DNA from: Pseudomonadota bacterium
GTDB taxonomy: Bacteria; Desulfobacterota; Syntrophorhabdia; Syntrophorhabdales; Syntrophorhabdaceae
Direction of reading: 5' to 3'
Length of the DNA: 64,000 nt
NCBI GenBank assembly: GCA_026388315.1
Contig: JAPLKA010000058.1
Coordinates: forward strand, 1 to 64,000
This document shows, piece after piece, positions 39,137 through 45,131 of this stretch. Below the pieces are notes generated by a model. The model ran no database searches. It worked only from the letters and a program-made list of their open reading frames with translations, and had not been told where the DNA came from. Each line of letters opens with the position of its first letter. Position 1 is the first letter of the stretch. Made by a program: the position numbers and the translations under genes.

Positions 39137-42100
39137 ATGATTGAAAAAGCAGAGAAATTTCCTGAACAACCAGAATCTCACATTGTCGGACAGCGGGCTT
39201 TAGACGTCTTCAATTACCGTCGTCCGCAGCATTGGATAGTCAATCCTTCGGTTAGAGACTATGGGTGGGACGGGCTCGTCGAAATTGGGACTGGCGGTCT
39301 GTCCTTTTTGGTGCAAATGAAGGGCTCCGGCGATCCTTCCTATTCGAGTGAGAAAGACTTCGTCAGCGTGGGGCTAAAAGTTGCCACTGTAAACTTCCTT
39401 CAAGGCCACCTTGTCCCCGCCATGGTTTGTATATGCGATACAGGAGCCGCAGATACTCCTGTCTACTATGCCTGGCTCGATGAAGTAATTAGAGAGATCG
39501 AGACTCAAAACCCGATTTGGAGCGGACAAGAAACCGTAACTGTCAGGGTTCCCACTATTCAGAGGATTGACCAGAATGTATCGGACACGGTATCCGATTA
39601 TGTATCAGAATGTCATAGTCGCCTTCAGATAGGCACGGAGATACTTGAGGTCATGGGAGTTGCCTCCGGCCTAAGTAAAGAACAGATGCGAACTTCATCA
39701 GCACCAGAACTAATGGAGCAGGCCATAAAACCCACGTTAGTCAAGGCAGGACTTATCGAGCTGTCCACAGACGAAGGATCGGAGCAAATCAATATTCTGT
39801 CCCCCGAAGACCAAAGACGATTCAAAAACATCCGAGAGATTTCTTTATTACTAAACGTCTTTAAGGACGACGAGGCTTGCCAGCGGCTTGACCGTTTGGA
39901 AAGTGAAATTGAACAAGCATCAGATGGGATAAAGGCCCCATACTTTAACAATAGGGGTGTTCTGGCCCTTCATACGGAGAAGAACGATTTGGATTCTTTA
40001 AAGTTCTTCTCTATGGCGGCCCAGTTAAGACCCTCAGAACCAAAATATGTGACAAATGGGCTATGGACAGAGTTCTCGATACGTAATGATGAGGGCAAAG
40101 CCGATCTCAGTATTGACTGGCAAGACAGGCTTGATAAGGTATTGGCGTCTAACCCGACCTTTGGCCCTGTAGTCAGGCTGAAGGCTATGCAAATAGCGCA
40201 GGCTTCAGGACATGAGGCGGCAACCGATTTCATTGTTAAAAGTCAGCTATGGCAAAAAGAACCTTTAGATTCCAGGCTCTGTTTGATCGAACTCTTGAAG
40301 GACACCGGGGAGTATGATCGAGCTATAGATGTTGTGGAACAGACAGAAAAGGAGGACGTTCCGTTAAATTCTCTTTTTTATTCCCTGGCTGGCTTCATCT
40401 TCCTCATGAAGGCCGTGAAAGGTCATGAACATAAGGGGCATGTCAGGTTCTCTACAGGACCAGCAGATATAAGTCCTGAACTACTGCAAAAGTCAAGTCA
40501 CTACTATGGTCTCGCTTTTAAGGAACTTATTTCTGCCGGATTTCCGCTTCCCTGGGAAGATACTATCTCCAACTACTCAATGATCTTAAGCCTCTTGGGC
40601 AAATACGAGGAAGCCGCTAACGTAGCCAAACCATTTTTGCAGAGACATCCTGCAAGCCCAATGGTAAATGATGCTCTCGCCTCTGCGCTCTTCAGAAAGG
40701 GCGAACCGGAAAATGCAGTTCCCTATGCCGAAAAAGCTTTTGCCGGAGAACCAACCTCGCATAAATTGAAGAATCTGTGTCTATGCCTATTTTTGGCTGA
40801 GGATTATGAAAAACTGATCACAACGATCTCTGAGAACCGTAAGCAGGGGTTTGAAGATGTGGACGAAGAATGCCTTTTGCGATCCCTCTGTGCTATCGCT
40901 TATTATGAAATCGGAGAGGAAGAGGAAAGTAGCAAACAGATTCGAGCACTTGACGAAAAGGAATTTGTGGCCGACGCCCTGACGGTCAAGTGTACTATAG
41001 CGAGCAAAAACAGGGCATCAAAAGAGACCATCATCGGCATTCTGAACCAAGCCCTTGAAGCCGATCCGGAGAACCTTACAGTTCGAACCCATATTGCCGG
41101 TTATCTAAATCCAACGACTGTTGAAGATGCCAAGATCATAGAAGATTGTTTTGAGCATATCCTCAAGTTCAGGGACCTTCTACCTGAAGAATATTCAAAC
41201 TACACCCGTGCCGTAAACACGCTCAACAAATATGAAAAGGCCAGAGATATACTGTACAAGGCTGTCAAGCGTTATCCTGGGATACCCAGTCTTATTCATG
41301 ATCTGGCCCTTGCAGTAGAATGTACCGGGGATCAGGAAACAGCCTACCAATTATGCTCGGATTACATCAGGCTCGGGGGCAAGAGTTATGCTGTTTTAAA
41401 GAACACAGCCATTCTGGCTGAGATGACCGGGCGAACAGATGAAGCAATTAAACTGTTTTCTAGGGCGCTCAGTAAAAGTCATGATGCTCATGAACAAGGA
41501 GATATCCACTGCCAGTTATACGAGCTAAAAAGGAGAAAGGGCGTTTCGACAAAGGAACTGATTTCACACATACATGAATTCGGCAAAACTATAACAGGCG
41601 ATGATACCACGAGAGAAGCACGGTATCTAACGATGATATTGATGGCTCCGAAACCATCTGACCAAGCCGATAAGGAACTCGAATTGTGGTTTGAAGAAGC
41701 CAAACGGAGATTAGGTGAGTTCGAACGGAAGCATCCGAAAAACCCCTTTCTAAAGGGCTTCAAAATTAACACAGCACTCTCCCCTGAGGAGCAGGCCTGG
41801 GACATGATGACAACTATCTCATCAGTGACTCTTCCGGCTCGTATGAGGGGCGCGCAGCTTGAGATGGCCGCGCGGAGCGGCACATGGGCTTTCGTGTTTA
41901 GGGCTGAGGTCTTATCTAATTCAGTTTTTTCCTACTGGTCTCTATGCACAGCATCCGAAGAACGTTCACACGCTATCCATATCTGGAGTCCGGATATATC
42001 ATTGGATGAGGAGAATAAGACTGCGGGAGCCGCAAAATCGGCGTGTGTAGACATTACCACCCTGCTCGCCCTCGCGCAACTTGATATGTTAGACCTGTTA

Positions 42101-43186
42101 GAGATCCTTGATCAAGTGGTTATTTCGCTCAGCACAAAGAGGGCATTGGCCATCGAGCTTGAAGGTATCCTGAGCGCCCCCTACCCTCTTGCCCAAAAAA
42201 TTGATGTCTGGCTCCGTACAAACAGGAGCAGGGTGCGTGTGCGAAGGTTTCCCTGGTCTAAAGGCTTCGACTTTGAAGATAATGAATCTGAGAGCAACGT
42301 GCCTGGTCTTCTTACGCCTTTTCAGCCATCAATTGCAAAGATGTTGCCTTACGGGGTCGGCGAATCCGTGAAACTTGCGGCCTTCTTGAACTTGCCACTC
42401 TATTCTGACGATGTCTTCGCGAGATATATTGCATTAAAAGATAATAACGTAAAAGGGTTCAGCACAATCAGCATGGTTGCGGCGCTTCGAGAAAAAGGCA
42501 AGATCAGCTTGGCCAGTGAGACTGAGGTCTTTGGGAAAATGCTGAAACTGAATTTTCGAATCGTACCTTTCAACTCTCAGCATCTTTACTGCAGCTTGGA
42601 GAACGTGGCAAATTCTCTTACAACAAAGGGTAGAATTCCGCGAGCTAAGGATTTGATTCAAGATGAGACGCTTGGGAGTCTGCTGCGTCAGTTCGCAGAT
42701 TCTTCGATAGAGCCTGCGGGTCTTTATCGAATTGCCATAGACTGGTGGATCGCGATTCTAGAAAAGGGTTTGCCGACAGGGATACTTGAACAGAGCATGG
42801 TTTACCTTCTCTTTGCCTTCTCTCAAAGGACGGTTGGAGGCGTACTCAAGGGAGTAGTGAAGGATGAACCCGATGAAATACGGGCTGCTCTTCTCACTTT
42901 TTTCTTACTGAAGGTCAGTCAAAAAGACAGTAGATTAATACCGGCGGCTTGGTCTGCAGTGAAGACTTATTGCGAAGAGCATTATCGGGACCAGGCAACT
43001 TTTCAAAAAGTCATTTTTGAAAAACTTCCAAACTGGTTTGTAAAGTTGCTGGAAATGCGTGTCAAAACCAATAGCTACGACAAGGTAAAAATACTGGCCT
43101 CCTTCACCACCAAACTGCCTAACGGTGACAGAACATTGATAGAAGAATATATTGTTCGCCATATCAGGCCATCATTCTTGACTTAA
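39137..43186 (+). CDS. Giant DUF4365 - TPR - PIN-like protein, candidate defence effector
   Basis: A 1,349-residue protein. The N-terminal 1-150 is a DUF4365-type PD-(D/E)xK-like domain: DYGWDGLVEI (D41, D45) and FLVQMKG (Q60-x-K62), with PVYYAWLDEV after it. Residues about 260-870 are a long array of TPR-like helical hairpins (for example ALASALFRKGEPENAVPYAE and DEAIKLFSRALSKSHDAHEQ). Residues about 968-1115 resemble a PIN nuclease: ACVDITTLLALAQLDMLDLL (D972), then GESVKLAAF (E1076) and YSDDVFARY (D1091, D1092) and GFSTISMVAAL. The last 230 residues are helical. There is no Shine-Dalgarno and no partner gene. Two nuclease-like ends joined by a sensor-like repeat array suggest a stand-alone defence or regulated nuclease system. 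The function is inference. Confidence 0.75.
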   Translation: MIEKAEKFPEQPESHIVGQRALDVFNYRRPQHWIVNPSVRDYGWDGLVEIGTGGLSFLVQMKGSGDPSYSSEKDFVSVGLKVATVNFLQGHLVPAMVCICDTGAADTPVYYAWLDEVIREIETQNPIWSGQETVTVRVPTIQRIDQNVSDTVSDYVSECHSRLQIGTEILEVMGVASGLSKEQMRTSSAPELMEQAIKPTLVKAGLIELSTDEGSEQINILSPEDQRRFKNIREISLLLNVFKDDEACQRLDRLESEIEQASDGIKAPYFNNRGVLALHTEKNDLDSLKFFSMAAQLRPSEPKYVTNGLWTEFSIRNDEGKADLSIDWQDRLDKVLASNPTFGPVVRLKAMQIAQASGHEAATDFIVKSQLWQKEPLDSRLCLIELLKDTGEYDRAIDVVEQTEKEDVPLNSLFYSLAGFIFLMKAVKGHEHKGHVRFSTGPADISPELLQKSSHYYGLAFKELISAGFPLPWEDTISNYSMILSLLGKYEEAANVAKPFLQRHPASPMVNDALASALFRKGEPENAVPYAEKAFAGEPTSHKLKNLCLCLFLAEDYEKLITTISENRKQGFEDVDEECLLRSLCAIAYYEIGEEEESSKQIRALDEKEFVADALTVKCTIASKNRASKETIIGILNQALEADPENLTVRTHIAGYLNPTTVEDAKIIEDCFEHILKFRDLLPEEYSNYTRAVNTLNKYEKARDILYKAVKRYPGIPSLIHDLALAVECTGDQETAYQLCSDYIRLGGKSYAVLKNTAILAEMTGRTDEAIKLFSRALSKSHDAHEQGDIHCQLYELKRRKGVSTKELISHIHEFGKTITGDDTTREARYLTMILMAPKPSDQADKELELWFEEAKRRLGEFERKHPKNPFLKGFKINTALSPEEQAWDMMTTISSVTLPARMRGAQLEMAARSGTWAFVFRAEVLSNSVFSYWSLCTASEERSHAIHIWSPDISLDEENKTAGAAKSACVDITTLLALAQLDMLDLLEILDQVVISLSTKRALAIELEGILSAPYPLAQKIDVWLRTNRSRVRVRRFPWSKGFDFEDNESESNVPGLLTPFQPSIAKMLPYGVGESVKLAAFLNLPLYSDDVFARYIALKDNNVKGFSTISMVAALREKGKISLASETEVFGKMLKLNFRIVPFNSQHLYCSLENVANSLTTKGRIPRAKDLIQDETLGSLLRQFADSSIEPAGLYRIAIDWWIAILEKGLPTGILEQSMVYLLFAFSQRTVGGVLKGVVKDEPDEIRAALLTFFLLKVSQKDSRLIPAAWSAVKTYCEEHYRDQATFQKVIFEKLPNWFVKLLEMRVKTNSYDKVKILASFTTKLPNGDRTLIEEYIVRHIRPSFLT

Positions 43187-43537
43187 ACCGGGCACACAAG
43201 CCAAGAAGGTAGTCCTTAACATAGGACAGGGAGGAGACAAAGGGCCTGCCCTTGAATTTTGAATTCCGGCAGGTGAAGGTTCGGCATATCCTACCATCCT
43301 TAAAACCCCTTCAGACAATTTGTAGACACTGTGTCTACAAACATATAATCCGCCGCAAAGCCAATAAATACAACGCTTCGCAGACGAGACGAAATATCGA
43401 TGGGGACGTTGTTTCTCGGCGTGCATTAGTTATTCCTTCTTTACCGCCTTCTCGATAAAATAGGGGACAAAATGTCGCCCGGAGTCAGGTTTAATCGCCC
43501 TGACAGCACTGCAACCAATTATGCAATTTGTGGCTTA
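43187..43537. other. Intergenic region after the DUF4365-TPR gene
   Basis: Contains a cctgcc/ggcagg hairpin (43245-43250 and 43268-43273) that may end the long transcript, plus the 23-bp palindrome listed separately. No gene is supported. Confidence 0.45.
43319..43341. promoter_or_regulatory. Perfect 23-bp palindrome
   Basis: TTTGTAGACAC and GTGTCTACAAA flank a single central T. Eleven perfect pairs with almost no loop favour a protein-binding operator over an RNA hairpin. The nearest genes are the upstream DUF4365-TPR gene and the downstream DUF3800 remnant. Confidence 0.5.
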
Positions 43538-43751
43538 ATACGATTTTTCAGGGCCTTAAATTGCTCATATATGTCGTATTGGTGCGGATTGAAGAGGTGT
43601 AAAATAGAAATGCTTGTAAAAACATCTTTAAAAAACCTCTCAAATTCCCGTTAAAACCATTTGACAAAGAAAAAATGTCATGTAATAGCAATTGGATAGC
43701 CAAGCGATCCTTAAGTGCTATTACATGAAAAAAAGCCCTGAAAAGTCGTAT
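43538..43751. mobile_element. MITE-like element with terminal inverted repeats
   Basis: Ends atacgatttttcagggc (43538-43554) and gccctgaaaagtcgtat (43735-43751) are inverted with 16 of 17 matches. An internal perfect 12-bp inverted repeat catgtaatagca (43679-43690) / tgctattacatg (43716-43727) encloses a smaller ggat/atcc hairpin. At 214 bp with no gene it fits a miniature inverted-repeat transposable element. No target duplication was recognised. Confidence 0.55.
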
Positions 43752-43946
43752 TATACCCAATTTGTCAATGCTATTTACAATTAGCATAAATATTGAACTG
43801 GGCAACCATCACTTATTTATGGCGGCAACGAAAGCTATATATACAAAGGAGTGAAGGTAACAGGCTGGACGGAATCGGGCATTCTCCTTCATTCATAAGG
43901 AAGGGACAGCAACAAATTAGGAGAACTCACCTGTAGAGACAAAAAG

Positions 43947-44055
43947 ATGACTGACGGAACAACCAGAAATTATTATGTTGACGAAGCCGGGGATGGAACA
44001 ATCTTCAATGCCAGAGGCCACAATTATCATCGGCAGCGAGGAGAAACAATAAACC
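43947..44055 (+). pseudogene. Truncated, frameshifted DUF3800 gene remnant
   Basis: The frame starts MTDGTTRNYYVDEAGDGTIF, then NARG: the YYVDEAGDG motif is the hallmark N-terminus of DUF3800 (RNase H-like) proteins. After about 25 codons a one-base shift is needed to continue with TIIIGSE, then similarity ends near 44041 and a stop follows at 44053-44055. The first frame stays open to 44198 through the structured RNA region but shows no further DUF3800 features. The rest of the gene is missing, as if removed or displaced by the downstream element. Confidence 0.65.
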
Positions 44056-44073
44056 CAAATATGTCGTTAGGAA

Positions 44074-44324
44074 GGTGTCGGGGTAGTTGCTCGTGGACTG
44101 ACCTCGCAATTAAACCGCCCCGGAGCAAACCGTCGAGAGGCGAGGAAGCTTGGTCTTTTGCTGTTAAGCAAAAGTTCCGAAGCCGAACGCGAGCATAAAC
44201 AGCCCGCACAGCGGGCGAGAGGGGGAGGCTCCACGAGCTTTGCTTGCGGAGGGGGCGACGCGAGCCCCGGTAATTGAAGCCGTTGGAGCGGAATGAGTGT
44301 GTTTGAGAGGGATGGTCCGACACC
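44074..44324 (+). ncRNA. Candidate structured RNA, about 250 nt (intron domain or guide-RNA-like)
   Basis: ggtgtcgg (44074-44081) and ccgacacc (44317-44324) close a domain. Internal stems include cggg/ccccg (44079 and 44118), CTTTTGC-tgttaa-GCAAAAG (44155-44174), GCCCGC-aca-GCGGGC (44202-44216) and an imperfect ccacgagc/gcttgcgg hairpin (44231-44249). Composition is GC- and purine-rich, unlike nearby DNA. It could be domain I of a truncated group II intron, or an omega/HEARO-type RNA of an IS200/605-like element. No reverse transcriptase, IscB or TnpB gene is present. The plus strand is assumed. Confidence 0.45.
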
Positions 44325-44354
44325 CATATGATTCTAACGATAAATCCGGGATTA

Positions 44355-45131
44355 TTAAGAAATGGCAGATTGTGCCCGTTTGAGATCTTCTTCCGTGTCG
44401 ATGCCGAAACCATTATAATCGGTTAGCAAGACCTTTATTTTATAGCCGTTTTCGAGGACCCTGAGTTGTTCGAGGGATTCTGCCTCTTCAAGAATACCCT
44501 TTTCCATGGCGACATATTTTTCGAGGAATGAACGGGAAAAGGCGTAAATACCGATGTGTTTGTAAATGCTGTTCGGAGTTCGGAGTTTGGAGTTCGGAGC
44601 AGTTTGCTCGGCCCCTTGAACCCTCGGCCCCTTGAACCCTTGGCCCCTTAAGTATGGTATCGGTGAACGGGAAAAATAGAGGGCAAAACCGGATTTGTCG
44701 AGGACAACCTTGACCGTGTTGGGGTTTGTGTATTCTTCTTCATCAATAATGGGGCTGCATAATGTGGCCATATCAAGACGTTCTTTTGCCATTGCATCGA
44801 AAAGCATATCCACCATATCAGACCTTATAAACGGCTCGTCCCCCTGGAGATTTACGATAATATCCGCATTTTTTCCTTGAAGTGCCTCCCGGCATCTGTC
44901 CGTGCCGCTCCTGCAATCGGGGCTTGTCATTGCCACAACTGCCCCGAATGCTAATGCCCTGTCCCGTATTCGCTCATCGTCTGTGGCAATAATGACCTCG
45001 TCCTTCAACTTCGATTCCATAGCCTTTTCGTACACCCACCGGATAATCGGTTTTCCGCCGATCTCCCGTAGCGGTTTCCCCGGAAGCCGTGTTGAAGCGT
45101 ATCGTGCCGGTATGACTATTATTTTTTTCAT
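44355..45131 (-). CDS. kdsB: 3-deoxy-manno-octulosonate cytidylyltransferase with repeat insertion
   Basis: A 258-residue enzyme that activates Kdo as CMP-Kdo for lipopolysaccharide. Its signatures are IIVIPARYASTRLPGKPL, GGKPIIRWVYEKA, DDERIRD, NLQGDEPFI, and FSRSPIPY before HIGIYAFSRSFL. Between the last two, a repeat-derived stretch is translated (RGQGFKGPRVQG, then NSKLRTPNS), placed in a naturally variable loop. The frame is intact, so the enzyme is probably active. AAAGG precedes the ATG. kdsA and kdsD lie 9 kb away on the other strand, so Kdo synthesis is grouped but not in one operon. Confidence 0.93.
   Translation of the reverse strand: MKKIIVIPARYASTRLPGKPLREIGGKPIIRWVYEKAMESKLKDEVIIATDDERIRDRALAFGAVVAMTSPDCRSGTDRCREALQGKNADIIVNLQGDEPFIRSDMVDMLFDAMAKERLDMATLCSPIIDEEEYTNPNTVKVVLDKSGFALYFSRSPIPYLRGQGFKGPRVQGAEQTAPNSKLRTPNSIYKHIGIYAFSRSFLEKYVAMEKGILEEAESLEQLRVLENGYKIKVLLTDYNGFGIDTEEDLKRAQSAIS
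44571..44652 (-). repeat. Composite repeat (A + B units) inside kdsB
   Basis: On the gene strand, unit A (44609-44652) is iterated aaggggccgagggttc, 16-bp period, and unit B (44571-44599) is iterated gaactccgaactcc. The order and reading frame equal those in the ferredoxin gene insertion, and both encode the peptides GFKG, RVQG and NSKLRT. Confidence 0.8.

Follow-up and report, generated by a model that had tools for sequence, protein, structure and literature searches.

The sequence analyzed (the window) is a 64,000-nucleotide stretch of contig JAPLKA010000058.1 from a member of the Syntrophorhabdaceae. At positions 39137 to 43186 it encodes a 1349-aa protein with an N-terminal DUF4365 domain and TPR repeats, followed at 43215-43350 by an intergenic stretch (cttgaattttgaat...gtagacactgtgtctacaaa) that recurs at about 820-960 of another locus, L023. 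A further element, about 218 bp long and bounded by inverted repeats of 22 nt (TAATACGATTTTTCAGGGCCTT), occupies 43536-43753, and similar ends (TTAATACGATTTTTGAGGGC) flank a stretch of the G005 genome (L211, about 1240-1452). Next come a short DUF3800-like fragment, the repeat described below and kdsB. Within kdsB, a short dispersed repeat of the ccttgaaccc... type lies in frame at 44607-44648 and has many matches in genome G002.

The preliminary description had recognized a DUF3800 gene by a YYVDEAGDG start, taken it to stop after about 30 codons and placed a structured RNA candidate directly behind it. The start is present, with its ATG at 43947. The +1 frame continues to 44198, inside the repeat; in the frame of a sister copy (C91, L023), reading ends at the TAA at 44049-44051 because of a one-base frameshift. 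Similarity to the sister copy stops at 44038; the 5' fragment occurs twice in the genome (window 43947-44038 and L023 1501-1591), with about 30 codons of similarity each. The 34-aa peptide had no match in Pfam, so the DUF3800 label derives from the motif alone. The fragment was found to be an unrelated neighbor of the repeat and not part of it.

Positions 44054-44350 are one copy of a non-autonomous mobile repeat, here called element A, which measures 297 bp in the window and about 186 bp in its insert-free form (Table 1). Its limits were set by aligning the copies of the window's own genome, among which similarity ends sharply on either side, and those given earlier for the structured domain were too narrow. 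The terminal inverted repeats are CCCAAATATGTCGTTAG / CTAACGATAAATCCGGG; the aligned copies have CCCAAATATGTCGTTAGGAA at the 5' end and CTAATGATAAATCCGGG at the 3' end, imperfect inverted repeats of each other. The closing arms reported earlier, ggtgtcgg and ccgacacc, are indeed in the sequence.

Table 1. Features of the window copy of element A
Feature	Positions	Strand	Basis
Whole element A copy	44054-44350	+	Alignment of own-genome copies
Left terminal inverted repeat CCCAAATATGTCGTTAGGAA	44054-44073	+	Alignment of own-genome copies
P1 (outer helix), 5' arm ggtgtcgg	44074-44081	+	Both-sided changes in 7 of 8 P1 pairs
Extra 33-nt arm gttgctcgtggactgacctcgcaattaaaccgc	44086-44118	+	Copy comparison
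Conserved core, 5' part: P2 5' arm GCAAAC, GNRA-type loop, CTTTTGC/GCAAAAG hairpin	44119-44194	+	
Inserted copy of dispersed repeat B, about 77 nt	44195-44272	+	Copy comparison
Core, 3' part: CCGC..GCGG hairpin, P2 arm GTTTG, P1 3' arm	44273-44325	+	
P1 (outer helix), 3' arm ccgacacc	44317-44324	+	Both-sided changes in 7 of 8 P1 pairs
Right terminal inverted repeat, reverse complement starting CCCGGATTTATCGTTAGAATCA	44326-44350	-	Alignment of own-genome copies
Right flank ATTAT, expected target duplication	44351-44355	.	Left flank ATAAA, 3 of 5 match

The window copy is composite: it carries two segments, the extra 33-nt arm and repeat B, that are missing from most other copies in its genome. 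The 33-nt segment also occurs in one further own copy (C56), in a copy from another genome (G002:C6) and, within G018 and G011, in many left halves; the idea that it was a third mobile repeat was dropped, as it is for the most part an arm belonging to an extended form of element A. Repeat B (AGCTCGCACAGCGAGCGAGAGGGGGAGGCTCC...GGAGGGGGCGACGCGAGCCCC; L214-L243) is dispersed, with 43 matches in the window's own genome, and its hairpin arms change together between copies, staying complementary. It also occupies almost the same loop of element A in genomes from a different genus (L279-L282). A PreQ1-III match to repeat B scored 24.5 bits against a cut-off of 63 and was taken as chance. By description alone, element A can be likened to the BOX elements of pneumococcus, intergenic repeats built of modules, of which the inner ones may be present or absent.

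A covariance model made from 61 copies gave 18 matches in the window's own genome, and it detected element A in 16 of 39 Syntrophorhabdaceae genomes, in 7 of 13 genera, at 1 to 49 copies each. No match was obtained with this model in seven genomes from two other families of the same class, nor was any found in the phage, plasmid and viral collections searched. When one genome per species was scanned for an exact pattern, 103 stretches were obtained, and among the matches listed the titles named Syntrophorhabdus, Syntrophorhabdaceae, Syntrophus sp. and Deltaproteobacteria/Proteobacteria. So far, element A appears to be found only in the Syntrophorhabdaceae, and a small literature search returned no description of it. 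Many copies inside one genome are 93 to 99% alike. Some copies persist with half of the core replaced, a point against the explanation favored below. At five loci (L325, L329, L333, L338 and L339) left halves were fused, just after or near CGTCGTGAGG, to unrelated, partly palindromic sequence, as in mosaic or truncated copies. It was considered that copies of one genus (g8) might be enclosed by a second shell of independent origin, but this was dropped, as comparison suggests that element A is nested there in a larger repeat.

Several observations point to the mobility of this repeat. Its copies are dispersed and carry no transposase gene, as is typical of miniature inverted-repeat transposable elements (MITEs), and at the family level they are flanked by a 5-bp AT-rich target duplication. 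The flanking 5-mers were identical in 15 of 39 two-ended copies (mean 4.0 and maximum 10 in 1000 partner shuffles) and had no more than one mismatch in 28 of the 39 (mean 14.3, maximum 23). The flanks of the window copy, ATAAA and ATTAT, agree at only three of five bases, and its duplication has decayed, so either the insertion is old or it has mutated since. This copy sits just past kdsB, a gene that lacks the element in the same-genus genome G001 and in G016, G005 and G012; G011 has a separate insertion at another base of the kdsB end.

These properties bear on the identities first considered for the structured domain. A search of Rfam at gathering and relaxed thresholds gave only chance-level matches. 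Domain I of a truncated group II intron had been proposed, and the size, the multi-branched look and the position beside a broken gene would fit such an intron. However, no Rfam group II family matched even at an E value of 10, no reverse transcriptase was found anywhere in the genome in a search whose controls were detected, and both ends of the element are inverted repeats with 5-bp duplications; we regard this identity as scarcely credible. An orphan omega/HEARO RNA from an IscB/TnpB-type element would likewise be structured, multi-copy and mobile, as element A is. This assignment is very improbable, given that Rfam HEARO gave no match, no common endonuclease neighbor was seen and similarity breaks off abruptly on either side, at inverted repeats that are symmetrical. 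An IscB profile search of the window's own genome also gave no match, but its controls were equally silent and the result carries no weight. The third identity, an unknown structured RNA, holds in part: compensatory changes support the fold, and no Rfam family matches it. What the preliminary description missed is that the domain lies inside a transposon-like repeat present in many copies.

We then considered what might mobilize element A. Matches to IS1380-family transposases exceeded the cut-off in 4 of the 16 element-bearing genomes (G008, G016, G011 and G002); NCBIfam NF033539 matched those of G008 and G011 at 250 and 207 bits, and that of G016 was found by Pfam. When judged by eye (L294, L303), the IS1380 ends TTTAA|CCCAAATCATGCATTAGAACAT (L294) and TTAA|CCCAAATAATGCA (L295/L296) look like the element A ends CCCGGATATGTCATTAGAGCAT. 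Two members of the family, IS1247 and ISEcp1, make 5-bp target duplications (PMC3281130, PMC2887853), as element A does. The related IS1380 copies in Syntrophorhabdaceae have CCCAAAT... ends that look like those of element A, which differs from them in lacking a transposase gene and in an interior for which no relation to IS1380 was seen. An IS1380-family transposase in related genomes is therefore a likely mobilizer. The link is one that we infer, since no IS1380 transposase was detected in the window's own genome (G000); nor was a full-length insertion sequence with element A ends found there. Counting against it, 12 of the 16 element-bearing genomes, the window's own included, have no IS1380 match over the cut-off. 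Two other sets of candidates were rejected: lone element ends at three loci in G014 and G005, examined as transposase-bearing relatives, were truncated or chance ends, and PF13701 matches in G019, G002 and G014 had no ends matching element A.

The claim that the domain is structured was upheld. The 254-nt domain of the window copy folds at -104 kcal/mol, compared with -92.1 +/- 4.9 for shuffled sequences (z = -2.4; 3 of 200 shuffles equally good), and insert-free sister sequences gave z values of -4.67 and -4.70, with none of 200 shuffles as good. Across 106 aligned copies, 95.9% of cells were paired under the proposed structure. Both-sided changes occurred at 14 of 30 pairs (6.3 +/- 1.4 after shuffling, with 0 of 500 shuffles reaching the observed count) and in 85 cells, versus at most 22 when the pairing partner was slid; the shuffles ignore the kinship of copies, which inflates the shuffle statistics, and the alignment had been fitted to the tested structure. 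By helix, both-sided changes affected 7 of 8 pairs in P1, 3 of 6 in P2, 1 of 3 in helix 3 and 3 of 10 in helix 4. The inner helices vary little and covariation lies mostly in P1, that between columns elsewhere being confounded by kinship; because of the kinship-blind shuffles and the structure-fitted alignment, support for the inner helices falls short of proof. The inner pairing that RNAalifold derived from a first alignment was unconvincing and was set aside. A small hairpin, with a loop of the GNRA type in 99 of 102 copies, is an alternative to helix 3 (GGC/GCC); the two compete, and each may form at a different time. Between copies, loops differ in length by numbers of nucleotides not divisible by three, which speaks against a coding role. 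Wobble G-U pairs filled 110 cells versus 36 for A-C, a single pair supplying 39 of the 110; counted by pair, the excess was 15 versus 5 (one-sided p = 0.02), which favors the + strand as the folding strand.

The core was also better conserved than the ends. Between the window's genus and other genera, identity was 0.918 for the core, 0.722 for the ends and 0.696 for P1 (288 pairs), and the core was the more alike in 97% of pairs; the pairs are non-independent and the copies were found through their cores with recognizable ends required, making the difference approximate. In MITEs the usual pattern is that the ends are kept for mobility while the middle decays. From these comparisons, element A appears to reverse that pattern, which is its most unusual trait.

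An ordinary MITE might nevertheless produce much of this signal if the hairpin mattered only as DNA, replication copying one arm onto the other, and if the cores were alike through recent spread from few masters. Compensatory change is indeed concentrated in P1, beside the ends, where it could also arise through correction of imperfect palindromes during replication; many copies within a genome are closely alike, and long stem loops are common among bacterial MITEs (PMC2229807). Recent spread, however, predicts equal likeness throughout, in conflict with the gap between core and ends across genera, and the G-U bias and the GNRA-type loop mark one strand. Both-sided changes also extend to the inner helices (three pairs in P2, one in helix 3 and three in helix 4). 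On balance we consider an ordinary MITE unlikely, though with an appreciable chance of being correct.

The copies of element A are located between genes. For this analysis, any open reading frame of 90 codons or more was counted as a gene, in place of curated annotation. Of the 140 genes flanking 70 copies, 83 have the 3' end facing the element, including 47 of the 70 on its 3' side. This arrangement and the conservation of the core above the ends could reflect a host regulatory RNA, such as a riboswitch or an element for 3'-end processing, which a transposon captured and disseminated and which remains functional at some sites. Yet orientation is not fixed (25 (-,-), 22 (+,-), 14 (+,+) and 9 (-,+)), no common neighbor gene was seen, the insertions are independent and a solitary, non-mobile version was not found, so this origin seems improbable. 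Stop-codon sites may simply be good insertion targets, given a target sequence that is rich in A and T and is often TTTAA.

Element A was compared with the structured bacterial MITEs ERIC/IRU, Correia/NEMIS and RUP, the transcripts of which fold into a long paired structure (PMC2229807). It shares with them a length of less than about 200 bp, the lack of a transposase, inverted ends, a target duplication, an intergenic location and a folded transcript, the last predicted here from sequence. The mobilizer of RUP, IS630-Spn1, was likewise inferred from similar ends (PMC2229807), as a related IS is for element A. In contrast to these MITEs, which are of the TA type, element A has a 5-bp duplication and CCCRRAT ends, a branched core conserved above the ends, and a distribution so far confined to the Syntrophorhabdaceae. 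In Coxiella burnetii, QMITE1 and QMITE2, with about 50 copies each, yield small RNAs, and one of the two is found chiefly in intergenic regions and 3' untranslated regions; their direct repeats are of 2 to 3 and 7 to 11 nt (PMC5896051), versus 5 bp in element A. Judged by these comparisons, element A is a MITE-like repeat of a known sort, and what appears new is its conserved structured core.

Taken together, the data make it probable that the window contains a copy of a MITE-like, non-autonomous DNA transposon that belongs to the Syntrophorhabdaceae and has a structured core kept by conservation. Mobility would be supplied in trans by a DDE transposase, in all likelihood a member of the IS1380 family, that would recognize the CCCRRAT... 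ends and place the element at AT-rich 5-bp targets, often right after stop codons. The interior, as + strand RNA, would fold into a closed, multi-branched structure comprising P1, P2 (GCAAAC/GTTTGC) and then hairpins, and selection would maintain it. Most likely, the core would act on transcripts entering or leaving the element, as a processing or stabilizing structure at gene ends; alternatively, it may be a recognition structure needed for the element's own spread. It is also conceivable, though rather doubtful, that the core itself is the unit selected, an undescribed mobile RNA or a single-strand DNA structure recognized by a protein, with the ends changing around it and modules such as the 33-nt arm and repeat B plugging into its loops.

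If the pattern of a conserved middle and drifting ends holds, it would suggest that the element functions as RNA or as single-strand DNA, and a family with hundreds of copies allows such a function to be tested. The covariance model of element A also describes a putative RNA that is absent from Rfam. In Syntrophorhabdaceae, it may explain breaks in draft genomes, as copies often lie at contig ends or contain gaps.
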